From: Unio delphinus
Taxonomy: Eukaryota > Mollusca > Bivalvia > Unionida > Unionidae
Reading direction: 5' to 3'
Assembly (NCBI GenBank): GCA_029339505.1
Contig: JAQISU010000094.1
Span: 2,753,501 to 2,817,500 of the forward strand
Length of the DNA: 64,000 nt
The notes beneath the pieces were generated by a model. The model was given only the letters and a program-made list of their open reading frames with translations. It did not search any database and was not told the DNA's origin. This document shows, one piece after another, positions 4,952 to 47,460 of the stretch. Each line of letters starts with the position of its first letter. The stretch's first letter is position 1. The position numbers and the translations under genes are program-made.

Positions 4952-5128
4952 AGCAGCAAGGGGGGAGGGGATGGGCGGGGGGCGTTGCGGACAACCTTTT
5001 ATAGAGGGGTCTATTTGGCAAACCAATGCTTCCTCCAAATCGTAAAAAGACGCCAACGTCATTGTCGCTCCCTCCCTGCTGCTATGGGGTTAAAAATCTT
5101 TTTACGATGAAAATCCTTTTAGGATTTC
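4952..5128. repeat. E1 left terminal inverted repeat
   Basis: It matches the reverse complement of 47253-47460, sharing the AGCAGCA tip, a GGACAACC block, GGTTTGCC/GCTTCCTCC-type sequence and the inner CCCTCCCTGCTGC..ATGGGGTTAAAAATC block. The copies are diverged and the left one is shorter. The tip and the GGACAAC block are shared with the E2 and E3 repeats. Confidence 0.85.
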
Positions 5129-5800
5129 AAACGAATATTTGATCAAGTCCGACACGATATCTTGATCTCGGGTCGTGCAAATGTATCATTACAAATCCAT
5201 GTGGGATTGACTGAGCGTGACTAAAGAAATTTTTAAAGAGATTATAATCCATATCACCGCCACACCAAGTTTGCCAAATATTTCGTAGCGTATGAATATC
5301 AACTTCATTAAATACCGCAATAATATTACAGTTTTCCCTGATCCCTTTTGGTATTTATGTATACTTCTGAGTAACATATATCACATCGGTATTTTTATGC
5401 CTACCTTTGGAAAATATCCTGGCAGGGTTTTCTTGTCTATCTAACATCACATCATCATATACGATTAAATTGTTAATACTTCTATCAAGAGAATCAACAC
5501 TCGGTGCTTCATCGATATCGGTTATAAACTCAATAATATCTTCATCGATTTCCGATTTTGCTTTCTCGTTAAAATCCTTTAACACCTCGTAACATCGCTG
5601 ATCGTCTACACTAGGAGCAATCAAATATAGTTTATCCGATTTCATCCATCTCGTCATTAAATTAAGTAGAAGTTATGTCTTGCCACTCCCAGATGGTCCG
5701 ATTATAATCATGCGAATAGAATTTGGTAGCGCTGCATGGTGCTTAACTGGTTCTCGTGCTTTTGTCGCCGAAAAAACAATCAATTACATTTATGTTATTA
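5127..5800 (-). pseudogene. E1 packaging ATPase (FtsK/A32-like), broken
   Basis: Homologue of the intact E2 ATPase. Walker A (GPSGSGKT) and Walker B (LIVYDDVML) are readable. The start region is frameshifted, a TAA directly follows Walker A, and a stop falls after the VIYVTQKYT segment. The gene runs out towards the left terminal repeat as in E2 and E3, and its last codons lie in that repeat. Confidence 0.88.
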
Positions 5801-5810
5801 TAAATAAATT

Positions 5811-6331
5811 ATGGATCTATATTGTGTGAAATATAAGAAGCGTACTAGCACAAACGACCTGACGATTAAACCTAAAATTAACAGATCAGAACTTGCTGGT
5901 AAGTGTGTAGAATGTGGTACCAAAAAATTTAGATTTGTTTCTATGAAATCTGTAGATGATTTTTAAAAAAACGAGGAGGTGATGTTGCAGCCAAATTAAT
6001 AAAATTACCAGGAACACCATGGGCGAAGTATCCGGGAGAAAAACACCTTCTGGGGCATAGTTATTGTGGTCCCGAGACAAGACTTGACATCAGACTCGAT
6101 GATCAAAACCAACCCCGACCCGGTGAAAACCCAATAAACGCTATTGATAAGGCGTGTCATGTTCACGATGTTGCAAATAAAAGTAGCAATCTGCAAAAGA
6201 GACATATCGCAGATGTAAAATTAATTCATGCGTTGAATTCTATCACCGATAAATCCTTCAAATAAAAATTGGCTTCATGGTTGATAAAATCGTCAATGAA
6301 AGGTAAATTAATGATAGGTGCTGGTAATTAA
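5811..6331 (+). pseudogene. E1 DUF5679 zinc ribbon + phospholipase A2 relic
   Basis: The first frame (5811-5966) keeps one Cys pair (CVEC) but has lost a Cys of the first pair (YCVKY). It stops at TAA directly before the A-run. The second frame carries the PLA2 signature, a YCGPETRLD loop (GPG changed to GPE) and CHVHDVA. An internal TAA lies near 6262. The A_AAA_AAC sequence survives at 5966-5972 but a zero-frame stop sits in front of it. Confidence 0.85.
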
Positions 6332-6338
6332 TAACAAC

Positions 6339-6929
6339 ATGGAATCTATTTATTATTCTCCAAGAGGATACTTGAGAGGTAAAGCAGCAATCAGTAAACT
6401 CGCTAGCGCCGCAAAGGTGAAAAAAACCACTGCAGCGGATTGGTTATCCAAACAGGCAATATGGCAAATTTATCTACCACCTCCTAAACAAATTAACTAC
6501 TCGCATTTTGATGTCAGCGTCCCTAGTGAGGTTCATCAAGCTGATATATTATTTTTTGCCGCATGATGGTGTTTACAAGTATGCGCTAACCGTAGTTGAT
6601 GTTGCGAGTTGATGCAAACAAGCAGAACCTCTAAAAACAAAATCATCAACTGACGTTGCTTCTGCGTTTGAAAGGATTTATCGTAGATGTTCTCTGCATT
6701 GGCCAAATCTATTACAAGTTGATCCTGGCAAGGAATTTCAAGGTGCAGTGTTATCAACAATGAAGCATCATAATGTCACCATCAGACGAGGACATACTGC
6801 ATTACATCGCGATCAGGCAATTGTTGAACGATTTAATCGGACACTTGCTGATCGGTTATTTGGATATCAATACGCGAAGGCATTCATTCAGGATAAACGA
6901 TCTCGTGAATGGGTCAAGAGATTACCAGG
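6339..6929 (+). pseudogene. E1 integrase, 5' part (split by E2)
   Basis: N-terminal and catalytic portion of the DDE integrase. It has the MESIYYSPRGY start, HQAD (first Asp), VDPGKEF (second Asp) and RDQAIVERFN (Glu). A frameshift and stops lie around 6560-6615. The frame ends at 6929, where E2 begins after CCAGG. The missing C-terminal part is at 37121-37477, and the two halves join in frame when E2 and one target duplication are removed. Confidence 0.93.
6925..6929. repeat. Target-site duplication of E2, left (CCAGG)
   Basis: Lies in the E1 integrase coding sequence immediately before AGCAGCAG. Confidence 0.95.
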
Positions 6930-7224
6930 AGCAGCAGAAGGGGCGAATCGGACAACATTTTAAGACAAGTTTTCACTGAAATCACGCTTAAAAACAATGA
7001 AACCAATGACATCAGGCCCCAATGTGTGTGTGAATCTGATATCGTTTCATGGATTAGGTCAAAAAAAAAAATATGAAAAAATCAATGAAATTAATGAAAT
7101 CCTCCATCGATTTTTTTGGGAAAAGGGACTACAACGTCGTTGTCACTCACCCCTTCTGCTGCTATGGGTTAACCGAATATTTGATCCAGTCCGATACGAT
7201 ATCGTGTTCGAGGGTCATGTAAAT
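6930..7224. repeat. E2 left terminal inverted repeat (~295 bp)
   Basis: Inverted match to 36824-37120. The outer 234 bp (6930-7163) is itself bounded by an inverted repeat, AGCAGCAGAAGGGG at the tip and CCCCTTCTGCTGCT at 7150-7163. The inner part overlaps the last codons of the ATPase gene. Confidence 0.95.
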
Positions 7225-7840
7225 TTATTGTTACAAATCCGTGTGGGGCAGACTGAGCATGACTAAAGAAATTTCTAAATTGATTGAAATCCATATCGGA
7301 GCACCATGTCTGCCAAATATTTCGTAGCGTATGTGTATCAACACCGTTGAATACAGCAAGCATATTACAGTTATCTCTAATCACTTTTGGAATCTGAGTG
7401 TAGCGTTGAGTGACATAAATCACATCCGTGTTTTTATGCCTGCCTCGGGAAAATATTCTAGCAGGATTTGTTTGATTATCTAACATGACATCGTCGTATA
7501 CAACTAAATTGTTAATACTTCCATCGAGGTCATTCACGGATGGCACCTCGTCAATATCGGTTATAAATTCAATAACATCCTCGCCGGCAATCTTTGAAGC
7601 GTTTTCATTAAAATCTTTTAGCACTTCATAGCATCGTTGATCATCTACGCTAGGGGCAATTAAATACAACTTATCCCACTTCATCCATCTCATTATTAAA
7701 TTGAGCAACAATTGCGTTTTACCGGATCCAGATGGCCCGATTATAATTGCGCGGATAGAGTTTGGTAGCGCTGCATGATGCTTCACTGGTTCTCTTGTTT
7801 TAGTCGCTGAAAAATCAATTATATTCATATCTCTATACAT
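7169..7840 (-). CDS. Packaging ATPase, FtsK/A32 type (E2, intact)
   Basis: 223 aa, full length. Walker A GPSGSGKT lies at about residues 35-42 and Walker B LVVYDDVML near residue 110. The downstream VIYVTQRYTQIPK segment, with its polar sensor-like Gln, fits A32-like genome-packaging ATPases of Mavericks, adintoviruses and large DNA viruses. It would use ATP to pump viral DNA into capsids. It is transcribed away from the zinc-ribbon/PLA2 gene with only 5 bp between the starts, so the two must share a promoter. The last ~18 codons lie inside the left terminal repeat. This is the only open copy of the three. Confidence 0.92.
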   Translation of the reverse strand: MYRDMNIIDFSATKTREPVKHHAALPNSIRAIIIGPSGSGKTQLLLNLIMRWMKWDKLYLIAPSVDDQRCYEVLKDFNENASKIAGEDVIEFITDIDEVPSVNDLDGSINNLVVYDDVMLDNQTNPARIFSRGRHKNTDVIYVTQRYTQIPKVIRDNCNMLAVFNGVDTHTLRNIWQTWCSDMDFNQFRNFFSHAQSAPHGFVTINLHDPRTRYRIGLDQIFG

Positions 7841-7845
7841 AAATT

Positions 7846-8375
7846 ATGGATCTATATTGCGTGAAGTGTAAGGCGCGTACTGGCACAGATGACTTGACGA
7901 CGATTACAACTAAAAATAACCGATCAGCGCTTTCTGGTAAATGCGTACAGTGTAGTACAAAGAAATTTAGATTTGTTTCTAAACCCAAGAAACCCAAGGA
8001 ACCTTTAAAAAAAAACGAGGAGGTGATATCGCTGCCAAATTAGCAAAACTCCCTGGAACCCCATGGGCAAAATACCCCGGAGAAAAACACCTTCCAGGGT
8101 ATAGTTATTGTGGACCGGGAACAAGACTTGATATCAGACTCAATGATCAAAATCAGCCCCGACCCGGTGAGGAACCAATAAACGCTATTGATAAGGCCTG
8201 TCACCTTCATGATGTTGCTTATAAAAGCAGCAATTTGCAACACAGGCATCTAGCAGATGTGAAATTAATTCATGCGTTGAATGCTATTCCTGATAAATCC
8301 TTAAAAGAAAAATTGGCTTCCTTTTTGATAAAATCGGCTATGAAAAGTAAATTGATGTTAGGTGCTGGTAATTAA
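7846..8375 (+). CDS. DUF5679 zinc ribbon - phospholipase A2 protein, made by -1 frameshift (E2)
   Basis: The zero frame (7846-8043) gives 65 aa with CVKC (residues 5-8) and CVQC (33-36), the four-Cys ribbon of DUF5679. The -1 frame stays open from upstream of the A-run to 8375. It encodes a parvovirus VP1-like phospholipase A2: YCGPGTRLD calcium loop, then KACHLHDVAYK with the His-Asp catalytic pair. This frame has no ATG before its last few residues, so it needs fusion to the zinc-ribbon frame. A_AAA_AAC at 8010-8016 is correctly phased for that. The fused product would be ~176 aa. PLA2 domains of this type breach endosomal membranes in parvoviruses; a virion entry role is inferred here. Confidence 0.82.
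8010..8016 (+). promoter_or_regulatory. Predicted -1 ribosomal frameshift site A_AAA_AAC (E2)
   Basis: The heptamer lies in a nine-A run with zero-frame codons AAA AAC, the canonical X_XXY_YYZ phasing. A -1 slip moves ribosomes into the PLA2 frame. A possible stem (CCCTGGAA pairing with TTCCAGGG) starts about 34 nt downstream, farther than usual. Confidence 0.65.
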
Positions 8376-8382
8376 TAACAAC

Positions 8383-9329
8383 ATGGAATCTATTTATTAT
8401 TCCCCAAGAGGATACTGGAAGGGTAACGCTGCAATCAGTAATCTCGCTAGCGCCGCAAAAGTGAAAAAAAACCACTGCGGCTCATTGGTTATCCAAACAG
8501 GCACTATGGCAAATTTATCTACCACCGCCTAAACAAATTCAATTCTCGCATTTTGATGTAACCGGACCCAATGAAGTTCATCAGGCTGATATATTATTTC
8601 TGCCACATGATCGTGGTTACAAATATGCGTTAACTGTAGTTGATATTGCAAGTCGATACAAAGAAGCAGAACCGTTAAAAACAAAATCAGCCACTGAAGT
8701 GGCTTCTGCATTTGAAAGGATTTATCGAAGGGGCCCTCTGCACTGGCCAAATCTGTTACAAGTTGACCCGGGCAAGGAATTTCAGGGTGCAGTGTTATCT
8801 ACAATGAAATATCACAATGTCGCTATCAGACGAGGGCATACTGCACTGCATCGTGATCAGGCCATTGTAGAACGATTTAATCGGATTCTTGCTGAGCGGT
8901 TATTTGGATATCAATATGCAAAAGAATTCATCCAAGAAAAAAAGATCCCGTGAATGGGTGAAGAGATTACCAGGTGTAGTTACCGCACTGAATAACGAGA
9001 TTACTAGAACCATCAACATGAAACCTATCAACGCGATTAAAAAGAAGTCGATACCTGAAAAACCACAAAAAGATTTCAAAGAACCAATTCTTGGTAGTAA
9101 TGTCATTGTGAGGTATTTATCTGAACCAGGAGAGCTTGAGGGTGGTACAAAAAGGGCTACTGATCCTATTTGGAGCGTCACTACGCATAAGATATCTAGT
9201 ATAACACGATCTACGGGTAGACTTCCAATCTATAAACTGGATTCAACTGCCCCTCAGCGTGGGTTTACTAGACAACAACTACAAGTGATACCCGAGGATA
9301 CTCAATTACCACCGCATGGTCTTAACTAG
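8383..9329 (+). pseudogene. DDE (rve) integrase, frameshifted (E2)
   Basis: Nearly identical to the intact E3 integrase. It has one extra A in the A-run at 8464-8471 and another at 8937-8943, which break the frame in two places. All catalytic blocks (HQAD, VDPGKEF, QAIVERFN) and the C-terminal GELEGG/RATDPIW domain are present across the pieces. It meets the replicase gene tail to tail, overlapping by 8 bp. Because both lesions are in homopolymers, sequencing error is a real alternative to mutation. Confidence 0.9.
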
Positions 9330-12300
9330 CATCCTTGCGTCTATTGCACTCAAGGCAAGTCAACATCACATTATTTCTGACATGACCGAGATTGTTATTT
9401 TTTCTGTCAACGGTGAATTGGCGAGGATCCTTATCCGAAAACTGCCAACGCATTATACAATTGCAACTTGCGCAGTGATTATTTTGTTGTTTCTTCAAAG
9501 TGATTATTAATTCAGCATCAATATCAAATTCTCGTTGTTTTTTTTTTGTCTTGTTGTTTGTAACCGGAGAGTTTTTTATCAATAATATCATTATCATCGC
9601 CAATGATTTCATCATCGCCACTGGCTTCGCCAACGACAATTCTTCGAAGTTGATTTATTTTTCGTACTCTAGACACTGCGAGATAGACTAAATTTGACCA
9701 TTCTATGCGATTATCTACCATCCAAACAGTTGTATCCGATATAGTCAATCCCTGTGAAGAGTGTATTGTTGCTGCATAACCTAGCGTCCATGGGGATTTA
9801 TTAGCACGCAATGCATCTTCAACGACATTGATATCAACCAGCACAATATCATTTAATACGAGAATCTTCTTTTCACGCCCTGACTCTGTCAGGCCTGGAA
9901 TATCAACTTCGATGTTCTGTTTTCGCGTATCCGATGGCCTATAACATAACGGTACTGGAAGTGTTGCAAATTTTTGTTTATGCAATTCAAATAACTTCAT
10001 CTGAAGTGTGTCCCTGACTATTTTTCTACTTGCAATGATTAAATCATTTGGTCTCCACGCTTCCCAAAACTCATTCATGGGAGTTTCCGAAATTATTTCA
10101 CGGGTTATTTCACACTGGATTCTATCCGGTTGTAATCTAATTAGTTTCTTCAATTCTTTTAATTCATTATCAAGTGATCTATGATCAGTATCAATTTCTT
10201 CATAATAGTCTACAAAACCCTTTAGCCATTCATGGGGGGATGCACCGACAAATGGTGGTGGTTGCCCGTGATCACCGCACATGACGACTTTTGTATTCTT
10301 CAATAACAACCACTCAAGAAATATTTTTAAGACATCTTCGGACACTGTGTCTATTTCATCCCAAATGATAATTTCAGGAATAAATTTCTCTCCCATGCGC
10401 TCAGGAGTCCATTTATCTCCCTTGCATCGGAAAAAGCTGTGATAAGTGCAGGCATTTACCCCTCTCTGTATCATTTCTCTTGCAAGTCTGTGAGTCGGTG
10501 TTAGCACAATCATGTTTGGATTGGAAACGCTAGCGTTTCTACGGAATAACTCAATTTCCCGGGTTGTTTTTCCTGACCCACCACAGCCGTTTAAATAAAC
10601 TGTTTTATACAGGCATATTGGATCAGAAATCGGTGGTGCACTAGAAAATTCTGAACACTGATTGCTTTCTAAGTAATTATTTTCAATGGTAACATCTGCT
10701 GATTGAATATAATCATGAATCATTTCTTTCTTAATTCTCCATGATCCCCATTTCTCGTTGCCAGTAGCCTTAAAATCAGCCATTTTGCTATTTATGTAAA
10801 ATGAATCAGTAGCAACTCTAACTGCGGTGGTAGGAAATCTATTGATCATTGAAAACAGATTGATAGAAGCATAACCGAGCATAGAAGCTCTCAAATGTGT
10901 GTACTGCGGATGGTATCCATCATTGTAGGTAACAATTGTACCCAATTTGGTTCCATCGGACAGAAATGCGTCCTTACGATTGACATATAGGCCCTTATTC
11001 GTTAGATCCGCCATTACAAAATCGTATTCAGCGTTGTCTATAATCAATCGTGAAGAATATTTCGTATTATCATCTTTGCCACCTTGGGTAAATTTACCGA
11101 TTATTCTTCGTCCAAGATTTTTTGCTTCATTGTTTCTGATTTCAAATAACTGTCTGGACCAATCCATGATTTGTTGTTCATTAAAATCAGGAAACAGTTT
11201 TCGCTCTTCGCTACTTATTTTTTCTAGATCAGCTTGTGGAAACCAGACTGATTTCTGTGCTCGATAGGATATAATTGCTTCACTGACAATTAATGATTTT
11301 AACATCTTACAATCAAGCATATACCGTAATAACACTATTGGCATCCAGTGTTTTTCAGACATGTGTTTACCAATCCAAAGATAACTACACGGATGAAGTC
11401 CTTCAGCCATTTCAAATGATACTACACAAGCGAATCCGGTTAAATCAAAATCAGGAAGTGGTCCATTAATCGCAACACGGGTCATTTCGTGTGTAGGGTG
11501 TCCAAATCGTTTGAAATATTTCTCACACTCTCCATACCCAAGAAAACTTCCTGGATAACACGCAATCATATCAACGGAAATAACGGTATCAGCGGTGTAT
11601 TTTGTGTTCCATAATCCTCAATGGCTGTATTCAAGACAGGATAATTTGACATCTGATAAAAACTCACTTCGGGTTGGTTTCCACGCGTTTTTCTTTCTAG
11701 CAAAATGTGCTGCAATGGATGGTACTGTGAAACAGTTTGCTAATAATTGATCTTCGATTTCCCCCTCAGAAAACTCACTAGCTAGTTGTTTCATTTGATT
11801 CTGCAGTTCTTCAGTACGGTATAATTCTCCGTTAGGCCTTACAAACTGATCAAATCTGCATTCCTCGTCTGAATTACTATGAAATAGCCACGCTGACACA
11901 GGATCGTTTTTACTCAAATGGTAAATAGCATCAAATAATTTCTGCTCTGAAAAAAACTCTTCGGTTTGGGATAGATATTTTACGGTTCTTTCCCGTGGGA
12001 ATATTGTTACTGCAGATGACCACGCGTGCGCGTTATGATCAATAATTTCAATGGGGGTTCCTTTTTTTGATTGATATTTCGGTTCTTTTAATACTTCACC
12101 GGTGATTGTCCTTACCGATATTGGAAATCTTAATGATGTTTCTAATTTAGTTATATCCTGAATTGTTGCTCCATGCTCTTTTACCGTGAACTCCCACTCG
12201 GTTATTTTTTTTCGTCTTAGATCAGTTAGTTTATTTCCCCGGGACGCATTTGTGAAGTGTTCTATTATTCGTTCTGCTACACAATTGAGCCCTGTCGAAT

Positions 12301-13084
12301 ATTTCATGGGTGCTAGTTTTGAAATATCAGGTTTTTCATTGAGCGGATAGATCCCGTAAACAACTGCTGTGACAGGATAAGATCTTTCGTAGTAGGGTTT
12401 ATCAATTCCAGTCAAAATTCCCGGTTTTGAATCCTGATTCACGGTGACAGTTTTTTTGCCCCTGAGAATGGGTTCAAATTTATCCCTAATAATCCATTTG
12501 TCATCTTCACGGATAATGAATTTGATTCGAAAAATATTTCCTTCTTTCCCAAGACGTGAAATGATCACTGCTGCTTTTTCATCATTCATGGTAGCGTCAA
12601 CAACACCATCAATTCGAAATGTTGACCAACAATAAGATGCCCCATCACGCTTGAATTCATTAAAACAGTCTCTGATGGGTTTATCAAGAATTTTATTCTT
12701 GGGTGTATTAGAAACTATATCAAGATTGAATTGAGCATCCTTCCATGGTGATCTCATGTTTCCGTCTCTTGGACGTTTGTTACGTTTTTTGGGTCTATCG
12801 CGATTAAATCTAGGATTGATTTTCAATAATCTCTTAAACTCTTTCATGTTTCCGTCTCTTGGACGTTTGTTACGCTTTTTGGGTCTATCGATATTAAATC
12901 TAGGATTGATTTTTAATAATCTCTTAAACTCTTTCACGTTTCCGTCTCTTGGACGTTTTTGACGTTTTTTTGGTCTATCGAGATTAAATCTAGGATTGAT
13001 ATTCAATAATCTCTTGAACTCTCTATCAGCATTGAATTTAGCATTTTTCGAAGTCAATCTCTTGAACTCCTTCATGCTATACAT
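9322..13084 (-). pseudogene. Replicase: basic repeats - PolB-like polymerase - SF1 helicase - HNH-like module (E2, two lesions)
   Basis: The frame starts MYSMKEFKRL and has three ~30-aa basic repeats (EFKRLLKINPRFN..RPKKR). A polymerase-like region follows: SVDMIACYPGS near residue 505 matches PolB motif A, RRIIGKFTQGG motif B and VATDSFYI motif C. Next is an SF1 helicase: GCGGSGKT near residue 830, IIIWDE, CGDHGQPPP and IHSSQGLTISDT near 1108. The end is a CxxC...CxxC module with FTVDRKNN, HNH-like. E2 has a TGA at 11618-11620 where E3 has a Gly codon, and one extra T in the plus-strand T-run at 9538-9547, which frameshifts before the HNH module. It would drive element replication. The helicase and HNH assignment is firmer than the polymerase. 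Confidence 0.85.
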
Positions 13085-13117
13085 AAAACAAACATTTAAA
13101 TGAAAGTTTTATGTATA
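13078..13117. promoter_or_regulatory. Divergent palindromic promoter, replicase/zinc-finger (E2)
   Basis: Perfect 12-bp arms TATACATAAAAC and GTTTTATGTATA (13078-13089, 13106-13117) flank AAACATTTAAATGAAA. It lies exactly between the divergent replicase and zinc-finger genes, and each arm carries a TATA-like element facing outward. The replicase ATG overlaps the left arm. Confidence 0.65.
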
Positions 13118-13138
13118 ATAAATCACTGCAAATAGCTC

Positions 13139-13355
13139 ATGATGGGAAATGTAACCCCGTGTAACAAATCATGCAGAAAAAATGAATACTGTAGGTATCA
13201 TATGCAAAGTTTTCGACGTGGAAGTCTTGGTCCGTTACCCTGTATTCGATGTGGGGTTGGGGTCAAGGGAAGATCACAATTGTGTATTGATTGTGGTGGT
13301 AAGCGATATAGGGAATTGAAGCGTTATTATGATAAAAGAATAAAAAATGGACAAT
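13139..13355 (+). pseudogene. Cys-rich zinc-finger protein, 5' part (E2, split by E3)
   Basis: The frame has CNKSCRKNEYCRYH followed by PCIRCGVGVKG and LCIDCGGKRY, i.e. two or three small Cys/His zinc knuckles, then a basic YYDKR tail. The E1/E3 start codon (ATGAATCAC) is ATAAATCAC here and the next Trp codon is TAG, so translation could only begin at the ATG at 13139. E3 cuts the gene after ACAAT. The C-terminal part is at 28405-28544. Likely a regulatory or DNA-binding protein; function unknown. Confidence 0.8.
13351..13355. repeat. Target-site duplication of E3, left (ACAAT)
   Basis: Lies in the zinc-finger coding sequence of E2. The uninterrupted version of this site can be read in E3 itself around 19899-19910. 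Confidence 0.95.
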
Positions 13356-13660
13356 AGCAGCAGAAGGGGCGAATCAGACAATATTTTTAGACAAGTTTTC
13401 ACTGAAATCACGCTTAAAAACAATGAAACCAGTGACATCAGGCCCCCAATGTGTGTGTGAATCTGATATCGTTTCATGGATTAGGTCCAAAAAAAAAATA
13501 TGAAAAAATCAATGAAATTAATGAAATCCTCCATCGATTTTTGGGAAAAAGGGACTACAACGTCGTTGTCACTACCCTCTCTGCTGCTAGAACTTTCAGT
13601 TGGGGTTAACCGAATATTTGATCCAGTCCGATACGATATCGTGTTCGAGGGTCATGTAAA
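13356..13660. repeat. E3 left terminal inverted repeat (~305 bp)
   Basis: Inverted match to 28081-28399. The outer 233 bp (13356-13588) is bounded by inverted AGCAGCAG/CTGCTGCT sequences. Between this unit and the ATPase stop both E3 ends have AGAACTTTCAGTTGGGG, where both E2 ends have only ATGGG. Confidence 0.95.
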
Positions 13661-14277
13661 TTTATTGTTACAAATCCGTGGGGGGTAGACTGAGCATGAC
13701 TAAAGAAATTTCTAAATTGATTGAAGTCCATATCGGAGCACCATGTCTGCCAAATATTTCGTAGCGTATGTGTATCAACGCCGTTTTATACAGCAAGCAT
13801 ATTACAGTTATCTCTAATCACTTTTGGAATCTGAGTGTAGCGTTGAGTGACATAAATCACATCCGTGTTTTTATGCCTGCCTCGGGAAAATATTCTAGCA
13901 GGATTTTTTTGATTATCTAACATGACATCGTCGTATACAACTAAATTGTTGATACTTCCATCGAGGTCATTCACGGATGGCGCCTCGTCAATATCGGTTA
14001 TAAATTCAATAACATCCTCGCCGGCAATCTCTGAAGCGTTTTCATTAAAATCTTTTAGCACTTCATAGCATCGTTGATCATCTACGCTAGGGGCAATTAA
14101 ATACAACTTATCCCACTTCATCCATCTCATTATTAAATTGAGCAACAATTGCGTTTTACCGGATCCAGATGGCCCGATTATAATTGCGCGGATAGAGTTT
14201 GGTAGCGCTGCATGATGCTTCACTGGTTCTCTTGTTTTAGTCGCTGAAAAATCAATTATATTCATATCTCTATACAT
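13606..14277 (-). pseudogene. Packaging ATPase with one nonsense codon (E3)
   Basis: Near-identical to the intact E2 copy, with Walker A and B preserved. TAA replaces a Phe codon at 13786-13788, about residue 164. The remaining ~60 codons, including the terminal-repeat-encoded tail, stay in frame. Confidence 0.92.
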
Positions 14278-14282
14278 AAATT

Positions 14283-14812
14283 ATGGATCTATATTGCGTG
14301 AAGTGTAAGGCGCGTACTGGCACAGATGACTTGACGACGATTACAACAAAAAATAACCGATCAGCGCTTTCTGGTAAATGCGTACAATGTAGTACAAAGA
14401 AATTTAGATTTGTTTCTAAACCCAAGGAACCCAAGGAACCTTTAAAAAAAAACGAGGAGGTGATATCGCTGCCAAATTAGCAAAACTCCCTGGAACCCCA
14501 TGGGCAAAATACCCCGGAGAAAAACACCTTCCAGGGTATAGTTATTGTGGACCGGGAACAAGACTTGATATTAGACTCAATGATCAAAATCAGCCCCGAC
14601 CCGGTGAGGAACCAATAAACGCTATTGATAAGGCCTGTCACCTTCATGATGTTGCTTATAAAAGCAGCAATTTGCAACACAGGCATCTAGCAGATGTGAA
14701 ATTAATTCATGCGTTGAATGCCATTCCTGATAAATCCTTCAAAGAAAAATTGGCTTCCTTTTTGATAAAATCGGCTATGAAAAGTAAATTGATGTTAGGT
14801 GCTGGTAATTAA
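14283..14812 (+). CDS. DUF5679 - phospholipase A2 frameshift protein (E3)
   Basis: Same two-frame layout as E2: a 65-aa zinc-ribbon frame (14283-14480) and an ATG-less -1 frame to 14812 with the PLA2 calcium loop (YCGPG) and His-Asp pair. No stops occur in either part. The predicted fused product is ~176 aa. Substitutions between E2 and E3 leave the A-run length (nine) and the phasing unchanged. Confidence 0.82.
14447..14453 (+). promoter_or_regulatory. Predicted -1 frameshift site A_AAA_AAC (E3)
   Basis: Zero-frame codons AAA (14448-14450) and AAC (14451-14453). The -1 frame then reads CGA GGA GGT into the PLA2 domain. A possible downstream stem pairs 14488-14495 with 14529-14536. Confidence 0.65.
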
Positions 14813-14819
14813 TAACAAC

Positions 14820-15764
14820 ATGGAATCTATTTATTATTCCCCAAGAGGATACTGGAAGGGTAACGCTGCAATCAGTAAACTCGCTAGCGCCGCAAAAGTG
14901 AAAAAAACCACTGCGGCTCATTGGTTATCCAAACAGGCACTATGGCAAATTTATCTACCACCGCCTAAACAAATTCAATTCTCGCATTTTGATGTGACCT
15001 TTCCTAATGAAGTTCATCAGGCTGATCTATTATTTCTGCCACATGATCGTGGTTACAAATATGCGTTAACTGTAGATGATATTGCAAGTCGATACAAAGA
15101 AGCAGAACCGTTAAAAACAAAATCGGCCACTGAAGTCGCTTCTGCATTTGAAAGGATTTATCGAAGGAGTCCTCTGCACTGGCCAAATCTGTTACAAGTT
15201 GACCCGGGCAAGGAATTTCAGGGTGCAGTGTTATCTACAATGAAATATTACAATGTCGCTATCAGACGAGGGCATACTGCACTGCATCGTGATCAGGCCA
15301 TTGTAGAACGATTTAATCGGATTCTTGCTGAGCGGTTATTTGGATATCAATATGCAAAAGAATTCATCCAAGAAAAAAGATCCCGTGAATGGGTTAAGAG
15401 ATTACCAGGTGTAGTTACCGCACTGAATAACGAGATTACTAGAACCATCAACATGAAACCTATCAACGCGATTAAAAAGAAGTCGATACCTGAAAAACCA
15501 CAAAAAGATTTCAAAGAACCAATTCTTGGTAGTAATGTCATTGTGAGGTACTTATACGAACCAGGAGAGCTTGAGGGTGGTACAAAAAGGGCTACTGATC
15601 CTATTTGGAGTGTTACTGCACACAAGATATCTAGTATAACACGATCTACGGGTAGACCTCCAATCTATAAACTGGATTCAACTGCCCCTCAGCGTGGGTT
15701 TACTAGACAACAATTACAAGTGATACCTGAGGATACTCAATTACCACCGCATGGGCTTAACTAG
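14820..15764 (+). CDS. DDE (rve) integrase, intact (E3)
   Basis: 314 aa from the ATG at 14820; a GTG-initiated extension would be unusual in a eukaryote. Catalytic triad: Asp69 in HQADLLF, Asp128 in VDPGKEF and Glu163 in QAIVERFN, with 34 residues between the last two, close to the usual 35. The N-terminal region lacks a classical HHCC zinc finger and instead has a small helical-looking WKGNAAISKLASAAKV block. The C-terminal ~110 aa (IVRYLYEPGELEGG, RATDPIWSV, RGFTRQQLQVIPEDTQLPP) is the SH3/chromo-like DNA-binding part of this family. It should catalyse strand transfer of element ends; all three insertions here imply a 5-bp staggered cut. It is the only intact integrase in the window. Confidence 0.96.
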   Translation: MESIYYSPRGYWKGNAAISKLASAAKVKKTTAAHWLSKQALWQIYLPPPKQIQFSHFDVTFPNEVHQADLLFLPHDRGYKYALTVDDIASRYKEAEPLKTKSATEVASAFERIYRRSPLHWPNLLQVDPGKEFQGAVLSTMKYYNVAIRRGHTALHRDQAIVERFNRILAERLFGYQYAKEFIQEKRSREWVKRLPGVVTALNNEITRTINMKPINAIKKKSIPEKPQKDFKEPILGSNVIVRYLYEPGELEGGTKRATDPIWSVTAHKISSITRSTGRPPIYKLDSTAPQRGFTRQQLQVIPEDTQLPPHGLN

Positions 15765-18700
15765 CACCCTTGCGTCTATTGCACTCAAGACAAGTCAACA
15801 TCACATTATTTCTGACATGACCGAGATTGTTATTTTTTCTGTCTACGGTGAATTGGCGAGGATCCTTATCCGAATACTGCCAACGCATTATACAATTGCA
15901 ACTCGCGCAGTGATTATTCTGTTGTTTCTTCAAAGTGATTATTAATTCAGCATCAATATCAAATTCTCGTTGTTTTTTTTTATCCTGTTGTTTGTAACCG
16001 GAGAGTTTTTTATCAATAATATCATTATCATCGCCAATGATTTTATCATCGCCAATGATTTCATCATCGCCTGACTCTGTCAGGACAATTCTTCGAAGTT
16101 GATTTATTTTTCGTACTCTAGACACTGCGAGATAGACTAAATTTGACCATTCTATGCGATTATCTACCATCCAAACAATTGTATCCGATATAGTCAATCC
16201 CTGTGAAGAATGTATCGTCGCTGCGTATCCTAGCGTCCATGGGGATTTATTAGCACGCAATGCATCTTCAACAACATTGATATCAACCAGCACAATATCA
16301 TTTAATACGAGAATCTTCTTTTCACGCCCTGACTCTGTCAGGCCTGGAATATCAACTTCGATGTTCTGTTTTCGCGTATCCGATGGCCTATAACATAACG
16401 GTACTGGAAGTGTTGCAAATTTTTGTTTATGCAATTCAAATAACTTCATCTGAAGTGTGTCCCTGACTATTTTTCTACTTGCAATGATTAAATCATTTGG
16501 TCTCCACATTTCCCAGAAATCATTCATGGGAGTTTCCGAAATTATTTCACGGGTTATTTCACACTGGATTCTATCCGGTTGTAATCTAATTAGTTTCTTC
16601 AATTCTTTTTATTTTTCATCAAGTGATCTATGATCGGTATCAATTTCTTCATAATAGTCTACAAAACCCTTTAGCCATTCATGGGGAGATGCACCGACAA
16701 ATGGTGGTGGTTGCCCGTGATCACCGCACATGACGACTTTTGTATTCTTCAATAACAACCACTCAAGAAATATTTTTAAGACATCTTCTGACACTGTGTC
16801 TATTTCATCCCAAATGATAATTTCAGGAATAAATTTCTCTCCCATGCGCTCAGGAGTCCATTTATCTCCCTTCCATCGGAAAAAGCTGTGATAAGTGCAG
16901 GCATTAACCCCTCTCTGTATCATTTCTCTTGCAAGTCTATGAGTTGGTGTTAGTACAATCATGTTAGAAACGCTAGCGTTTCTACGGAATAACTCAATTA
17001 CCCGGGTTGTTTTTCCTGACCCACCACAGCCGTTTAAATAAACTGTTTTATACAGGCATATTGGATCAGAAATCGGTGGTGCACTAGAAAATTCTGAACA
17101 CTGATTGCTTTCTAAGTAATTATTTTCAATGGTAACATCTGCTGATTGAATATAATCATGAATCATTTCTTTCTTAATTCTCCATGATCCCCATTTCTCG
17201 TTGCCAGTAGCCTTAAAATCAGCCATTTTGCTATTTATGTAAAATGAATCAGTAGCAACTCTAACTGCGGTGGTAGGAAATCTATTGATCATTGAAAACA
17301 GATTGATAGAAGCATAACCGAGCATAGAAGCTCTTAAGTGTGTGTACTGCGGATGGTATCCATCAGTGTAGGTAACAATTGTACCCAATTTGGTTCCATC
17401 GGACAGAAATGCGTCCTTACGATTGACATATAGGCCCTTATTCGTTAGATCCGCGATTACAAAATCGTATTCAGCGTTGTCTATAATCAATCGTGAAGAA
17501 TATTTCGTATTATCATCTTTGCCACCTTGGGTAAATTTACCGATTATTCTTCGTCCAAGATTTTTTGCTTCATTGTTTCTGATTTCAAATAACTGTCTGG
17601 ACCAATCCATGATTTGTTGTTCATTAAAATCAGGAAACAGTTTTCGCTCTTCGCTACTTATTTTTTCTAGATCAGGTTGTGGTAACCAGACTGATTTCTG
17701 TGCTCGATAGGATATAATTGCTTCACTGACAATTAATGATTTTAACATCTTACAATCAAGCATATACCGTAATAACACTATTGGCATCCAGTGTTTTTCA
17801 GACATGTGTTTACCAATCCAAAGATAACTACACGGATGAAGTCCTTCAGCCATTTCAAATGATACCACACAAGCGAATCCGGTTAAATCAAAATCAGGCA
17901 GTGGTCCATTAATTGCAACACGGGTCATTTCGTGTGTGGGGTGTCCAAATCGTTTGAAATATTTCTCGCATTCTCCATACCCAAGAAAACTTCCTGGATA
18001 ACACGCAATCATATCAACGGAAATAACGGTATCAGCGGTGTATTTTGTGTTCCATAATCCGCCGTGGCTGTATTCAAGACAGGACAATTTGACATCTGAT
18101 AAAAACTCACTTCGTGTTGGTTTCCACGCGTTTTTCTTTCTAGCAAAATGTGCTGCAATGGATGGTACTGTGAAACAGTTTGCTAATAATTGATCTTCGA
18201 TTTCCCCCTCAGAAAACTCACTAGCTAGTTGTTTCATTTGATTCTGCAGTTCTTCAGTACGGTATAATTCTCCGTTAGGCCTTACAAACTGATCAAATCT
18301 GCATTCCTCGTCTGAATTACTATGAAATAGCCACGCTGACACAGGATCGTTTTTACTCAAATGGTAAATAGCATCAAATAATTTCTGCTCTGAAAAAAAC
18401 TCTTCGGTTTGACATAGATATTTTACGGTTCTATCCCGTGGGAATAGTGTTACTGCAGATGACCACGCGTGCGCGTTATGATCAATAATTTCAATGGGGG
18501 CTCCTTGTGATTTATATTTCGATTCGTATAATACTTCTCCGGTGATTGTCCTTACCGATATTGGAAATCTTAATGATTTTTCTAATTTAGTTATATCCTG
18601 AATTGTTGCCCCATGCTCTTTTACCTTGAACTCCCACTCGGTTATTTTTTTTCGTCTTAGATCAGTTAGTTTATTTCCCCGGGACGCATTTGTGAAGTGT

Positions 18701-20047: not shown

Positions 20048-20057
20048 AATAGTATAT

Positions 20058-32760: not shown

Positions 32761-32809
32761 ACGATTTTTCTCGATTTTTCATTGAATTAGAATCAATCAA
32801 TTATATATA

Positions 32810-33040
32810 ATGTCATATAGTGTTATTAGTGTTACGTTAACTCCTGGTCAAATCAAAAAATTGCAATCAGAATCGGCTAAAAAATGTGGAACCACAATCA
32901 CGTTGAAACCCAACCAAATGACTGGTGGTGCAAATAAACTATCGCTGACAACTCGTCAGGTGAAACATTTCAATGATGCTTTCAAGGATAAAAAAGGAGT
33001 TCAGATTACTCTCTCTCTGCGGCTGCTATCAAAAATATGA
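32810..33040 (+). CDS. Small core-type protein, N-terminal frame (E2)
   Basis: 76 aa with the VTLTPGQIKKLQSE and LSLTTRQVKHFNDAF blocks. The end differs from E3: an extra CT in CTCTCTCT shifts the frame. The stop again overlaps the next ATG as ATGA. Confidence 0.65.
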   Translation: MSYSVISVTLTPGQIKKLQSESAKKCGTTITLKPNQMTGGANKLSLTTRQVKHFNDAFKDKKGVQITLSLRLLSKI

Positions 33041-33351: not shown

Positions 33352-33377
33352 TTCAGAAATCTTCAATTTCCGAACCT

Positions 33378-33824
33378 ATGATTCCCATGTCCAATTTTGA
33401 TTTAATGGATGCTGCTAAAAAACTAGCGATTAAACATTTCAGAGGTGTTTTTATGAAAGATCAATTACCACATCAACCAAACAAAACTGAAACAGGTATT
33501 ATTAATCTCGATAACAGCACCGGACCTGGAACTCACTGGGTTGCATACGCTATTGATCCACGTGGGATTGTCTATTTTGATTCATATGGATTAGCCCCAC
33601 CAAAAGAATTTATGCGTTACATAAAACAATTTCCAATGAAGACTTGGTATTCTACGCTACCAACACAACAAATCAATGACCCACCAATATGCGGCAGTGA
33701 AGTATTAAATGTCCTTGACGCTATTTCTAACTCCTTGGGTAACCCAAGGGGAAAACCACCTCATATTGTCGTAAATGACTACACCAGCAATCGCTTTTTA
33801 GAGAGAGAAAGAGTTTTACAATAA
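33378..33824 (+). CDS. Adenain-like cysteine protease (E2, intact)
   Basis: 148 aa from the ATG of MIPMSNFD. His53 (THWVAY), Asp68 (YFDSYG), Gln97 (PTQQ) and Cys105 (PICGSE) form the expected catalytic set of adenovirus-type proteases. Its targets would be the capsid and core precursors encoded next to it. Confidence 0.86.
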   Translation: MIPMSNFDLMDAAKKLAIKHFRGVFMKDQLPHQPNKTETGIINLDNSTGPGTHWVAYAIDPRGIVYFDSYGLAPPKEFMRYIKQFPMKTWYSTLPTQQINDPPICGSEVLNVLDAISNSLGNPRGKPPHIVVNDYTSNRFLERERVLQ

Positions 33825-33825
33825 C

Positions 33826-34950: not shown

Positions 34951-34955
34951 TTGAA

Positions 34956-34982
34956 AACGCTAGCGTATTTAAAATAAAAATG
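34956..34982 (+). promoter_or_regulatory. Dyad promoter AACGCTAGCGTA (E2)
   Basis: ACGCTAGCGT palindrome followed by ATTTAAAATAAAA and the ATG of the two-TM protein. Confidence 0.55.
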
Positions 34983-35627
34983 ATTTCATCATCTCAATAT
35001 CGCTATGATCAGGTCAGAGAGTATCAAACTAGACTCAAAACCCTGTCTGAGGAGTATGAATTGAAAATTAAAAAATATCGCAGGAGAATTACCGCAATTG
35101 ATGTTACTGTGTATTCAGTGAGTGGTGTAATCACCGGAGCCGGTATTATACTGTCTTCAGTGACAATGATGGCACCGATAGCTGTTCCAATTTGCATTTC
35201 TGCGGCAACAACAATCGCTGGAATAATTTCAATAATCACAAAAAAAATATCCTCATGCAGCCAACGGAAACTACAAGACTACATAATTCAATTTCATGTT
35301 GTGTCTACTGCATACTCGCAATTATCCTCATTGATATCGTCATCGCTCGATGATACAATTATATCAGAAAGTGAGTTTTCAGCGATGGTAGATATATATG
35401 ATTCTGCGATGTCAAAATTAGAAGTACAAAAACATGAGTATAATAACAATGACAACACCGATGGAATTACTTCAACAAATAGTGGAGAACACAAACCCAG
35501 TACAAACAAGCATGATCTCAATAACCTCAACGAATCCAGAATTCAGTGTGAATTTCCCCTCTCCGGTCCCATTGAAGGAGATAGCGCTAGCCAAATTACG
35601 AGTATACCACAGTTGGCCAAATATTAG
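34980..35627 (+). CDS. Two-TM coiled-coil membrane protein (E2)
   Basis: 215 aa. Differs from the E3 copy at very few positions (e.g. TVYSVSG versus TVYAVSG). Overlaps the next gene by about 180 bp. Confidence 0.7.
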   Translation: MISSSQYRYDQVREYQTRLKTLSEEYELKIKKYRRRITAIDVTVYSVSGVITGAGIILSSVTMMAPIAVPICISAATTIAGIISIITKKISSCSQRKLQDYIIQFHVVSTAYSQLSSLISSSLDDTIISESEFSAMVDIYDSAMSKLEVQKHEYNNNDNTDGITSTNSGEHKPSTNKHDLNNLNESRIQCEFPLSGPIEGDSASQITSIPQLAKY

Positions 35628-36807
35628 GTCAAAATCATTTGGTGGTCAACAACCCAATAATTCACTGGTATTTGCAAATAAGAATAAACCAGACGGTACC
35701 CCAGATTGGAATGTTGTTTCCATACCAACCGGATCATACCAAATTGAACAAATCAATGATGAATTCGCGCGTAGAATAAAATCGATTACTGGAGTAGAGT
35801 CAAAAATAGCTATAACAGTTCATGTGCCGACACTATCATCTGCCATTGAAATAAGCACAGAAGGATACGTCGTAGATATCTATCAGAGTTCTATTAGAAC
35901 CGTACTAGGATGGCCTGAATTACCACCCGGTGGAAAAACCGTTAAATTACCAAAACCACAAAAAACTGATTATATCACCGACAGGACAAAATCTGATAAT
36001 CCAATAAAAAGCTATAGATATTATGATAAGTCATATTTTTTCATTAGAGTAGAATATGATGAAAAAATACGACTTATTCATCATCTTGCTAACCGGGATA
36101 AAATCACTGAAAATTTCACAGCTTTCAATAACGATATTTCGTTGTTGTTTATATCCCTTAGATCAGGCACTCTCACCCGAGATGAATTTATCAGTGTCGT
36201 AGAAACATGTAACAAAATCATCAATGACATGGAAACATTTCATTCACAAATTATTCAAGAGGTATTAGGTGACAGTAGTCCTAAAACAAGAGATTTATTT
36301 GCAATAGACTATAAGATCCGCATAAGAGATATTCCAACATTCAAACTACCAGGATATAATCTCTTAGAACTACAAAAATCTCTCGATGATGCCATCGATG
36401 AAGGTTTCAAAAAAATCCATGATACGTGGAAAAAAACACCATCACAACCACAAACAACTATCCTGACCCATAATAATGACCCAGATGGTGGTGGCAGGCA
36501 TATTGCTCCGTTCAAGGTGAATATTTCAACGGTGATTGCGCTCAATTTAGTATGTGATGTGATCGAAGGAAGCTATCAAATAAATTTAGAACGATCAAAT
36601 CAAGCTCAGCAGGGATATATTTTGTATTCATTTGCACCAACAGCTCCTCCAGGGTTTTTAATAATTGAGTCCCCGGTGAATCCAGTCTATATGCGATGTC
36701 ATAATAATTCATTAACCAGAATTAATTTCAAACTCACTGACCAGTCTAATAATCTGATTGATTTACAAGAGGAGGTTTTACAAATTAGTCTATTTGTAAA
36801 GTCGTAG
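35449..36807 (+). CDS. Penton-like minor capsid protein (E2, intact)
   Basis: 452 aa. The start at MTTPMELLQQ is supported by the E1 homologue (MATSQELLQR). The N-terminal NFPSPVPLKEIALAKLRVYHSW and PTGSYQIEQINDEF motifs and the C-terminal LYSFAP..PGFLII...KLTDQSNNLI blocks match the penton/minor capsid protein usually encoded by Mavericks and adintoviruses. The central region (about residues 170-330) is the variable one. It is the last gene before the right terminal repeat. Confidence 0.74.
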   Translation: MTTPMELLQQIVENTNPVQTSMISITSTNPEFSVNFPSPVPLKEIALAKLRVYHSWPNIRSKSFGGQQPNNSLVFANKNKPDGTPDWNVVSIPTGSYQIEQINDEFARRIKSITGVESKIAITVHVPTLSSAIEISTEGYVVDIYQSSIRTVLGWPELPPGGKTVKLPKPQKTDYITDRTKSDNPIKSYRYYDKSYFFIRVEYDEKIRLIHHLANRDKITENFTAFNNDISLLFISLRSGTLTRDEFISVVETCNKIINDMETFHSQIIQEVLGDSSPKTRDLFAIDYKIRIRDIPTFKLPGYNLLELQKSLDDAIDEGFKKIHDTWKKTPSQPQTTILTHNNDPDGGGRHIAPFKVNISTVIALNLVCDVIEGSYQINLERSNQAQQGYILYSFAPTAPPGFLIIESPVNPVYMRCHNNSLTRINFKLTDQSNNLIDLQEEVLQISLFVKS

Positions 36808-36823
36808 TGATTTTCGTCGTAGT

Positions 36824-37120
36824 GATTTACATGACCCTCGAACACGATATCGTATCGGACTGGATCAAATATTCGGTTAACCCATAGCAGCAGAAGGGGT
36901 GAGTGACAACGACGTTGTAGTCCCTTTTCCCCAAAAAATCGATGGAGGATTTCATTAATTTCATTGATTTTTTCATATTTTTTTTTGTTGACCTAATCCA
37001 TGAAACGATATCAGATTCACACACACATTGGGGCCTGATGTCATTGGTTTCATTGTTTTTAAGCGTGATTTCAGTGAAAACTTGTCTAAAAATGTTGTCC
37101 GGTTCGCCCCTTCTGCTGCT
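36824..37120. repeat. E2 right terminal inverted repeat (~297 bp)
   Basis: Inverted partner of 6930-7224. Its inner edge (36824-36880) carries the same 18 codons plus stop that end the ATPase, on the plus strand and without the rest of the gene, just after the penton-like gene. Confidence 0.95.
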
Positions 37121-37125
37121 CCAGG
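37121..37125. repeat. Target-site duplication of E2, right (CCAGG)
   Basis: Directly follows CTGCTGCT. The integrase reading frame resumes here. Confidence 0.95.
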
Positions 37126-45356: not shown

Positions 45357-45385
45357 AGTAAACAACTACATTGAAATCTATTTAA

Positions 45386-45411
45386 AAACACTAGTGTTTT
45401 CAAAATAAAAT
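45386..45411 (+). promoter_or_regulatory. Dyad promoter AAACACTAGTGTTT (E1)
   Basis: A perfect 14-bp palindrome, then CAAAATAAA and the ATG of the two-TM gene. It corresponds to AACGCTAGCGTT in E2/E3, with symmetric base changes. Confidence 0.6.
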
Positions 45412-45868
45412 GTCATCACAGCAGTATCACTATGATCAAGTCAGAGAATTTCAAATTAAACTCAAAACCCTTACTGAGGAGTATCAAGTAAAAATAAAAC
45501 AAATTCGACGAAGAATCACCGCAGTTGATGTTACCGTGTACTCGCAGAGTGGTGTAATCACCGGAGCCGGTATTATTATCTCCTCGGTGACAATAATTGC
45601 CCCGATAGCTGCTCCAATTTGTATATCAGCGGCGACAATAAGTGCGGGAATTATTTCGATTATAAAAAAAAAAAAAAATCATCATGCAGCCAGCGTAAAC
45701 TGCTAGTTTACGTTGTTAAATGTCATGCTGTCAACCGCGTACTCACAATTATCCTCGATGATATCGTCATCACTCGATGACACATTAATATCAGATAGTG
45801 AGTTTTAAGCGATGGTACGTGTTTATGATTCCGTGGTGTCAAAATTAGAAAAAGATAATAACAATAAT
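45410..45868 (+). pseudogene. E1 two-TM protein relic
   Basis: About 95 codons are open with both hydrophobic segments. An expanded A-run at 45664-45677 then shifts the frame, and the Ser-rich region follows with a TAA near 45808. Confidence 0.82.
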
Positions 45869-45878
45869 AACAACAACA

Positions 45879-47292
45879 ATGGCAACATCGCAAGAACTAC
45901 TTCAACGAATAGCAGAAAATACCAACCCGGTGAAAACAAGTATGATATCAATAACGTCACCCAATCGTGAATTCAGTGTGAATTTCCCTTCTGCGATTCC
46001 CGTGAAAGAAATAGCGTAAGCAAAGCTACGAGTGTCTCACAGTTGGCCTAATATTAGGTCGGTAGCATTTGGTGGTCAACAACCGAATAATTCCCTGGTG
46101 TTTGCGAGTAAGAATAAGCCCGATGGTACTCCAGACTTGAACGTTGTTTCGTAACCATCTGGGTCCTACCAAATCGAACAGATCAATGATGAATTACAAC
46201 GCAGAATAAAATCCATTACTGGAAAAGAATCGAAAATCACTATAACAGTTCATGAGCCGGCGTTATCATCTGCCATTTAGATAAACTCACCCGGTTATGC
46301 CGTAGATATCTATCAGAGTTCAATCAGAACTATACTAGGATGGCCTGAAAAACACCTCCACCTGAACCATAAAAATCCGAGAATGTTACGGATAAACAAT
46401 CATACCATGATATTACCACATCATATAAAGAACACCTCCGTGATATTAAAAAATCATCACTGGCGGGTAGCTATTTTAATTTTGTTGATCAGGATTCCGC
46501 CTTTTGGAGATTTAAGGTTGGACAGACTCCAGAACCAATTACGTATATAAATATATATCCTAACAGAATTATTGAATACTTTTGAGAGATCAATCAAGAA
46601 CACAGGAACAGGCTTTCCATGAGTCAAATCGGAGTGAAATCATTAAACGAATTGAAATATTAAATCAACTTGTATCCGACATGTAATATGTCAACCAGCG
46701 AGTAATTCAAGTAATAATTGATCATAACGATGACAATATTAATTACTCTAAACGAAATTTTCTAACTGTATACATTATAACAGAAGCCGATCTACCGAAT
46801 TTCAAGTTTCCTGGGTATAACTCAAACGAACTAAAAAATTCCGTTAATGATTTTCTCAATGAAAAATTTATTGCGATATTCACCTCATGGAGACAACAAC
46901 ACAAGGGTTCAACTATCCTCAAACATGATAATGACCCAAACGGAGGCGGTAGGCATATCGCTCCTCAAAACGTCAATATATCCTCGGTGATTGCATTGAA
47001 TTTAGTATGTGATGTTATCGAAGGAAGCTACGAAATAAATCTCGAAAGATCGAGTCAAGCCCAACAGGGGTATATTTTATATTCATTTGCACCAACAGCT
47101 CCTCCAGGGTTTCTAATAATTGAGGATTCAACTAATCCAGTCTACATGCGATATCATAATGATTCGTTAACGAGGATTACTTTCAAACTCACTGACAAGT
47201 CCAATAATCTAACTGATTTACGAGGTGAGGTCCTACAAATCAGTCTGTTTGTAAAATCCTTAAAGGATTTTCATCGTAAAAAAGATTTTTAA
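45879..47292 (+). pseudogene. E1 penton-like minor capsid relic
   Basis: MATSQELLQRIAENTNPVKT opens. Stops follow at about 46018, 46155 and 46278. The centre is again unlike E2 and E3. The last ~100 codons are open and the original stop is lost, so the frame reads ~10 codons into the terminal repeat. Confidence 0.85.
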
Positions 47293-47460
47293 CCCCATTG
47301 CAGCAGGGAGGGTGCGACAACGACTTTGGTATCTTTTTTTTACGATTTCGAGGAAGCATTGGTTAGCCAAATAGACACTTTTTTACGATTTTGGAGGAAG
47401 CCTTGGTTTGCAAAATAGACGCCTCTATAAGAGGTTGTCCGATTCGCCCTCCCTGCTGAT
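47253..47460. repeat. E1 right terminal inverted repeat with internal duplication
   Basis: Inverted partner of 4952-5128. It contains a direct duplication of about 57 bp (roughly 47335-47430, unit including TTACGATTT.GAGGAAGC.TTGGTT) that the left copy lacks. Confidence 0.85.

Follow-up and report, generated by a model that had tools for sequence, protein, structure and literature searches.

Three nested virus-like elements with 5-bp target duplications, probably Tlr1-type Polinton-like viruses, at a single locus

The stretch of 64,000 nucleotides analysed here (contig JAQISU010000094.1 of assembly GCA_029339505.1, listed under Unio delphinus; hereafter the window) carries three related virus-like elements, E1, E2 and E3, of which E3 sits within E2 and E2 within E1. 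These are probably three endogenous Polinton-like viruses (PLVs) of the Tlr1 type, which integrated successively at one locus. On the basis of their architecture, and with Tlr1 compared by its description, we file the elements as putative Tlr1-type members of the Polinton-like supergroup (Preplasmiviricota).

Results

Three elements with exact ends and 5-bp duplications

The original prediction described a three-fold nesting in one orientation, with exact element ends and perfect 5-bp duplications of the target. Both self-BLAST and a reading of the ends bore this out, and the following features were delimited.

4952..47460, plus strand: E1, the oldest of the three and the one most decayed, 12,313 bp without E2
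6930..37120, plus strand: E2, within E1, 15,142 bp net of E3
13356..28399, plus strand: E3, within E2, 15,044 bp
4947..4951 (left) and 47461..47465 (right): target-site duplication AAACG of E1
6925..6929 (left, in the 3′ part of the E1 integrase gene) and 37121..37125 (right): target-site duplication CCAGG of E2
13351..13355 (left, in a small cysteine-rich open reading frame (ORF) of E2) and 28400..28404 (right): target-site duplication ACAAT of E3
8970..8974: uninterrupted copy, within E2, of the E2-in-E1 target; another unbroken copy lies in E3
19903..19907: uninterrupted copy, within E3, of the E3-in-E2 target

The ends of all three elements are inverted repeats of the AGCAGCA type, a motif that is itself over-represented (24 matches versus 3.85 expected). 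Their common orientation has a chance of 1/4 and carries little meaning on its own. The flanks at each pair of element ends were compared over all lengths between 3 and 11 bp. They matched at 5 bp and at no other length, and the match was perfect in 3/3 elements. For two positions drawn at random from the window, the probability of sharing a 5-mer in this way is 0.0017. The observation of three nested elements with 5-bp duplications is confirmed.

Self-BLAST placed the internal junctions at the same positions, as the homology between E1 and E2 ends at 6929 and restarts at 37121 with a 5-bp overlap, while the homology of E3 to the right part of E2 begins at 19903/28400. It had further been claimed that removal of the inserted elements restores the interrupted frames. 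Indeed, when the two sides of each insertion were read separately and one copy of the duplication was counted, codon CCA of the E1 integrase (6925-6927) was in phase with 37121-37123, and the same held in the small cysteine-rich ORF of E2 for codon CAA (13352-13354) and 28401-28403. The name 'zinc-finger' for this ORF was given by eye. The E3 copy of the ORF is broken near the target site, and the undisturbed site that had been noticed in E3 is present as the unbroken copy listed above.

The unbroken target copies together with the kept codon phase support successive integrations and speak against misassembly. An assembly artefact, in which three separate copies were wrongly joined, has to be considered because large parts of E2 and E3 are ∼97% alike, and such a likeness is able to confuse assemblers. 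Such an error, however, would not yield exact 5-bp duplications at all six tips (the chance of three at predefined places is ∼5e-9), nor would it keep the codon phase at both internal sites, and we regard it as very improbable.

A replicase with palm motifs fused to a helicase

The sole replicase-sized gene of the elements has a length of ∼1200 codons and lies on the minus strand.

15757..19380, minus strand: replicase of E3, in two pieces of 923 and 283 amino acids that are split by a stop
9325..13108, minus strand: replicase of E2, broken too, at places other than in E3

The replicase was aligned with 15 of the 20 homologues listed, and motifs of family B DNA polymerases (PolB) were assigned by eye. 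In this alignment D456, Y461 and P462 are invariant and were read as motif A (SVDMIACYP), while the likewise invariant IGKFT block at 613-617 was taken as motif B. In motif C, most rows have ATDS in place of the usual DTD, with A709, D711 and S712 conserved at 90% or more. A superfamily 1 (SF1) helicase follows the putative palm, as judged by a match to Pfam AAA_19 (3.2e-12) and by profile matches to 8bns, an 'AAA ATPase' (3.4e-6), and to the Bacteroides Pif1 structure 5fhd (3.2e-5). The C-terminus contains a conserved C-x2-C...C-x2-C stretch that is HNH-like, and it gave a weak profile match (E 0.44) to the restriction endonuclease PacI, an HNH enzyme; no Pfam HNH match was found in the replicase pieces.

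Family searches covered 30 ORFs (28 of the 46 listed and two shorter ones), and 27 of these lie within the elements. Among these 30 there was no match to a DNA_pol_B family at E 0.01, and neither a classical protein-primed PolB (DNA_pol_B_2) nor a PolB of the adintovirus type was found. The AlphaFold model of the 923-residue piece was poor, with a predicted local distance difference test (pLDDT) score of 54. With this poor model, the top match of Foldseek among viral proteins was the unnamed H6WBE3 (938 columns, TM-scores near 0.1). The named viral rows were mostly helicase-bearing, one was called RNA-dependent RNA polymerase, and a Tetraselmis viridis virus S1 protein appeared as row 28.

Apart from this, tandem repeats of 90 bp are located in the part of the gene that encodes the replicase N-terminus, at 12754-13022 and 19194-19573, and their copy number differs between E2 and E3.

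Capsid, packaging, protease and integrase genes

In addition to the replicase, the elements carry the following genes.

31345..32760, plus strand: major capsid protein of E2, open for 471 codons from stop to stop (PF21738, double jelly roll (DJR), 5.8e-18)
7169..7843, minus strand: packaging ATPase of E2 (Pox_A32, 3.3e-11), with homologous sequences in E1 (5133-5804) and E3 (13609-14280)
33189..33824, plus strand: cysteine protease of E2, S273R/adenain-like, with an E3 counterpart at 24732-25349
14799..15764, plus strand: RVE-type integrase of E3, open for 321 codons from stop to stop
14420..14812, plus strand: phospholipase A2 (PLA2)-like protein of E3 (PF08398, 3.2e-12)
20037..20564, plus strand: free-standing endonuclease-like gene of E3 with HNH_3 and NUMOD1 (Pfam, 1.8e-13); counterparts in E2 (28545-29060) and, with HNH_3 only, in E1 (38773-39294)
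35422..36807, plus strand: 461-codon protein of E2 whose fold was not recognised, with an E3 counterpart at 26788-28062

Three features of the supergroup were thus found, namely a DJR capsid protein, a packaging ATPase of the A32/FtsK type and a protease of the adenain/Ulp1 type. The capsid gene is broken in E3 (22867-24303) and in E1. The packaging ATPase also has weaker matches to other P-loop families. When compared with solved structures, the protease matched S273R (8.1e-6) and adenain (0.11), and its match to Pfam Peptidase_C5 (0.0027) was under the cut-off. The RVE integrase is broken in E2 and, in E1, interrupted by E2; it gave a match to a PHROGs transposase (0.0044). Candidates for a minor (penton) capsid protein were sought among the proteins of 154 and 461 amino acids, neither of which had a match in Pfam or PHROGs. 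The model of the 461-residue protein had a pLDDT of 34.

Tandem repeats that differ in copy number between E2 and E3 were also seen in another gene, where a 93-bp unit is repeated at 25513-25707 and 33985-34365.

Identity of the elements

As in the elements studied here, Tlr1 from Tetrahymena thermophila has an RVE integrase, a packaging ATPase and a capsid gene. Tlr1, and PLVs with a Tlr1-like helicase (pPolB-S1H), combine a PolB palm, an SF1 helicase and a homing-endonuclease-like domain. In Tlr1-like helicases with this arrangement, the first Asp of motif C is absent, as it is here (PMC11071308, section 10). TP-like and vOTU domains ahead of the palm are a further mark of the Tlr1 type. On the other hand, the C-terminus of Tlr1 is of the GIY-YIG type while ours is HNH-like, the 2015 set of PLVs is described as having no protease while our elements have one, and the PLA2-like gene counts as a further difference from Tlr1 and the PLVs. 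Moreover, the relatives that carry species names are animals, unlike the ciliate host of Tlr1.

Two other groups share part of this architecture. Adintoviruses are likewise animal-associated and carry an RVE-type integrase, and a PLA2-type domain is known from them; they differ from our elements, in which the ORFs scanned had no DNA_pol_B family match. The PLV of Oxyrrhis marina (OmPLV) also has helicase and PolB in one protein, but there the helicase is N-terminal and an exonuclease domain has been retained, and an RVE integrase was not found (PMC12721341).

The original prediction measured the elements against Polintons, and nested canonical Polinton/Maverick elements would indeed account for much of the gene content. 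The RVE integrase, the A32 ATPase, the DJR capsid protein, the protease and the terminal inverted repeats (TIRs) of ∼295 bp are all shared with that group, and so are ends that start with AG, the doubled trinucleotide (AGC)2 being comparable to the (AGT)2 of vertebrate Mavericks. What distinguishes the elements is their replication gene. A classical protein-primed PolB is not recognisable in the ORFs scanned, where the DNA_pol_B families remained without a match, and the only gene of suitable size encodes, in one protein, PolB-palm motifs with a motif C that lacks the first Asp, an SF1 helicase and an HNH-like end. This fusion disfavours canonical Polintons, and we consider it unlikely, at about one chance in ten, that the elements belong there. 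The Polinton identification was therefore not retained.

Several observations weigh against our own assignment to Tlr1-type PLVs. The PolB palm of the replicase is a putative one, assigned from motifs that were read by eye. Sequence searches of the replicase against solved structures returned no polymerase, and the best 50 of the 1165 PDB Foldseek rows (E ≤ 10) contained helicases, thymidine kinases and other proteins and no DNA polymerase. The replicase gene is broken in all three copies. The match of the E3 integrase to PF00665 (E 3.7e-5, 24.4 bits) is under the curated cut-off of 32.6, and the integrase had no match among solved structures at E 0.1. Likewise, none of the solved structures matched the capsid profile at E 1, and a minor capsid protein was not recognised among the element proteins by Pfam, PHROGs or the low-scoring model of the 461-residue protein. 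The 5-bp length of the duplications comes from three insertions. Lastly, that the elements are viruses is predicted from their genes.

Terminal repeats and tip units

The TIRs of the two younger elements were delimited as follows.

6930..7224, plus strand: left TIR of E2, 295 bp
36825..37120, minus strand: right TIR of E2, 296 bp
13356..13649, plus strand: left TIR of E3, 294 bp
28106..28399, minus strand: right TIR of E3, 294 bp

The TIRs of E2 are identical at 292/295 positions with 1 gap and those of E3 at 291/294 positions with no gap, so that each pair differs at 3 aligned positions. In E1, just a 133-bp core was alignable (123/133, 8 gap columns), and the tip motif is mismatched at one position at the right end. 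Between E2 and E3, the first 250 bp of the TIR show 10 mismatches and 15 gap columns, as compared with an identity of 99% within each element. This higher likeness within than between elements fits an equalisation of the repeats during replication, before integration.

An inverted copy of the tip was found inside all six ends, and the distance from the tip to the end of this inner copy is 132-235 bp. The resulting fold-back units are listed below.

4952-5083: terminal unit of E1, with a mirrored unit at the right end
6930-7163: terminal unit of E2, with a mirrored unit at the right end
13356-13588: terminal unit of E3, with a mirrored unit at the right end

The inner tip match was better than in 1000 of 1000 shuffles for four ends, and better than in 985 and 992 of 1000 for the two E3 ends; pair-block shuffles were used for this check, not exact dinucleotide shuffles. 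The middle of the unit gave no alignment between E1 and E2. A tip of ∼31 bp is common to the right end of E1 and the left end of E2, and the alignment goes no further. A second integrase end and a replication signal are possible roles of the inner copy. Folding of the E2 unit was better than that of shuffled sequences (z -2.66, 0 of 200) and that of the E3 unit was weaker (z -1.34, 17 of 200). Hairpin telomeres with a parvovirus-like hairpin transfer were considered as well and found to be unsupported, the middle of the unit being unflipped in the left end of E2 versus the right end of E2 and both ends of E3.

Integration history

From these data we propose the following sequence of events. 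A PolB-SF1 helicase replicase would copy a linear genome and keep both terminal repeats alike. The RVE integrase would join the AGCAGCA ends to target DNA whose two strands are cut 5 bases apart, and filling of the gaps by host repair would produce the 5-bp duplication that is observed. E1 would have integrated first, followed by the related E2 in the E1 integrase gene and by E3, a close relative of E2, in the small cysteine-rich gene of E2, and each later insertion would have inactivated one gene of the earlier element. Two later integrations went into resident relatives, and therefore related resident copies give no absolute target immunity.

The order E1, then E2, then E3, as previously suggested, is supported by the nesting. 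The accompanying claim that the insertions can be dated relative to one another holds for this order and for little else, since with 3 differing positions in each pair of TIRs the ages of E2 and E3 are inseparable by their repeats and nesting alone orders the two.

All three copies were damaged further. E1 is without ∼2.55 kb near 38005 that correspond to 9866-12416 of E2 and hold the polymerase/helicase core of the replicase. Separately, self-comparison showed that ∼1 kb of E1, at 39293-40362, is without counterpart in E2 or E3; this segment has neither a clear TIR nor a clear repeat elsewhere in the window.

The comparison of E2 with E3 was broken down into 58 aligned blocks of 250 bases, 48 of which differ at 14 positions or fewer. 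The ten diverged blocks fall at 29400-30690 (23-108 differences), 34171-34925 (16-28) and 35835-36340 (29 and 55). By this pattern E2 and E3 are mosaic relatives, not parent and copy, which suggests recombination among sublineages, as would be expected of a replicating virus population.

A variant of successive integration is that the integrase, or the chromatin state, steers new copies preferentially into resident members of the family. Both later insertions at this locus do lie in relatives, but this is a single locus that was picked out because it is nested, and the target 5-mers AAACG, CCAGG and ACAAT have no motif in common. Such self-targeting seems to us rather improbable. Carried further, it would mean that animal, perhaps molluscan, germ lines hold a lineage of Tlr1-type PLVs that lacks self-immunity and whose self-steering integration builds nested clusters, newer copies inactivating older ones; its fold-back termini, in which the inner edge repeats the integrase tip, would then offer a possible second recognition end. 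This is a speculation to which we attach little probability.

Returning to successive integration of Tlr1-type PLVs, the 5-bp duplication had been pointed out as differing from the 6 bp usually reported for Polintons. This stands for the vertebrate Mavericks that are counted as intact, which have 6-bp duplications and (AGT)2 or (AG)3 ends (PMC8097293), ends of the same style as the AGCAGC tip. It does not stand for the group at large, as the length given for mavirus and Maverick-Polintons is 5-6 bp, and that for endogenous virophages is mostly 3-5 bp (PMC8547959). Likewise, three integrated PLVs have duplications of 5-7 bp (PMC7805220), and 5-6 bp are stated in general, with 6 bp as typical for RVE integrases (PMC12220804). 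A 5-bp duplication is already known and not remarkable for such elements. Its occurrence in 3/3 insertions may be a property of this integrase, n=3 being a small number.

Relatives and flanking DNA

Among the 20 replicase homologues listed, two carry species names; one is from Sinanodonta woodiana (48% over 62%), the other from Desmophyllum pertusum (35% over 69%). The same holds for the 20 capsid homologues listed, where one named row is from Sinanodonta woodiana (63% over 61%) and one from Potamilus streckersoni (51% over 43%). The named relatives among the matches listed are thus two unionid mussels and a stony coral, and none of these 20 replicase and 20 capsid homologues is named Tlr1 or PLV. 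Both trees were rooted at midpoint. In the replicase tree the window sequence groups with P0005 and P0006 (100/99); Sinanodonta, which has a long branch, belongs to the same part of six rows (100/100), and the coral falls in the other part. An unusual letter make-up was flagged for the window row and three rows near it. In the capsid tree, Sinanodonta is inside the eight-row group that holds the window capsid (98/97) and Potamilus is outside. By themselves these relatives may point to an aquatic invertebrate, and perhaps to a mollusc, as the host.

Scans of IMG/VR, for which two peptide patterns were taken from each alignment and 30 stretches (replicase) and 34 stretches (capsid) were tested, confirmed no relative, and a scan of GTDB confirmed 1 of 37 stretches. 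The latter, L001 (673-2331), is a replicase relative with 49% in the best segment and without a long ORF over the match. It is on a 3.2-kb contig filed under a metagenome-assembled genome of a Diapherotrites archaeon, where it is probably misbinned. When the replicase piece was compared with phage records by tblastn, one record was matched over 12% of its length, in the helicase part.

In the flanks, none of 33 candidates proved to be a homologue of the ORF at 2187-2810 at E 0.01. Searches for tRNAs and, at gathering cut-offs, for Rfam families gave no match. Pieces of an endonuclease and a reverse transcriptase resembling those of long interspersed nuclear elements were recognised by eye from ORFs at 59591-61241, and the one piece scanned had no Pfam match.

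Discussion

Nesting as such has precedents. Retrotransposons have been described within PLVs and virophages, in one case within an RVE integrase gene, which likewise amounts to a mobile element in a PLV (PMC12747079, PMC12220804, PMC8547959). In these published cases the inserted element is a retrotransposon, whereas here it is a relative of the recipient, twice in succession. In the literature searched, partly in excerpt, we found no case of a PLV within a PLV, and no paper on PLVs in molluscs was found by title or abstract among the entries listed, which for one search were 10 of 993; absence there is not absence from print.

For a PLV that would combine an RVE integrase with a Tlr1-like replicase, the locus supplies six element ends and three target duplications, all of them exact. 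The nested order provides a relative timing that is unobtainable from TIR divergence alone, and it follows from the two later insertions that related endogenous PLVs need not exclude one another from a locus. Furthermore, with named relatives in two unionid mussels and a stony coral, the locus points to the presence of Tlr1-type replicases in animal genomes. Bellas et al. found that, among metazoan capsid genes, those of cnidarians alone fell outside the main Maverick-Polinton cluster (PMC10120064). If the host is a mollusc, the metazoan range of these viruses may widen beyond the cnidarians.

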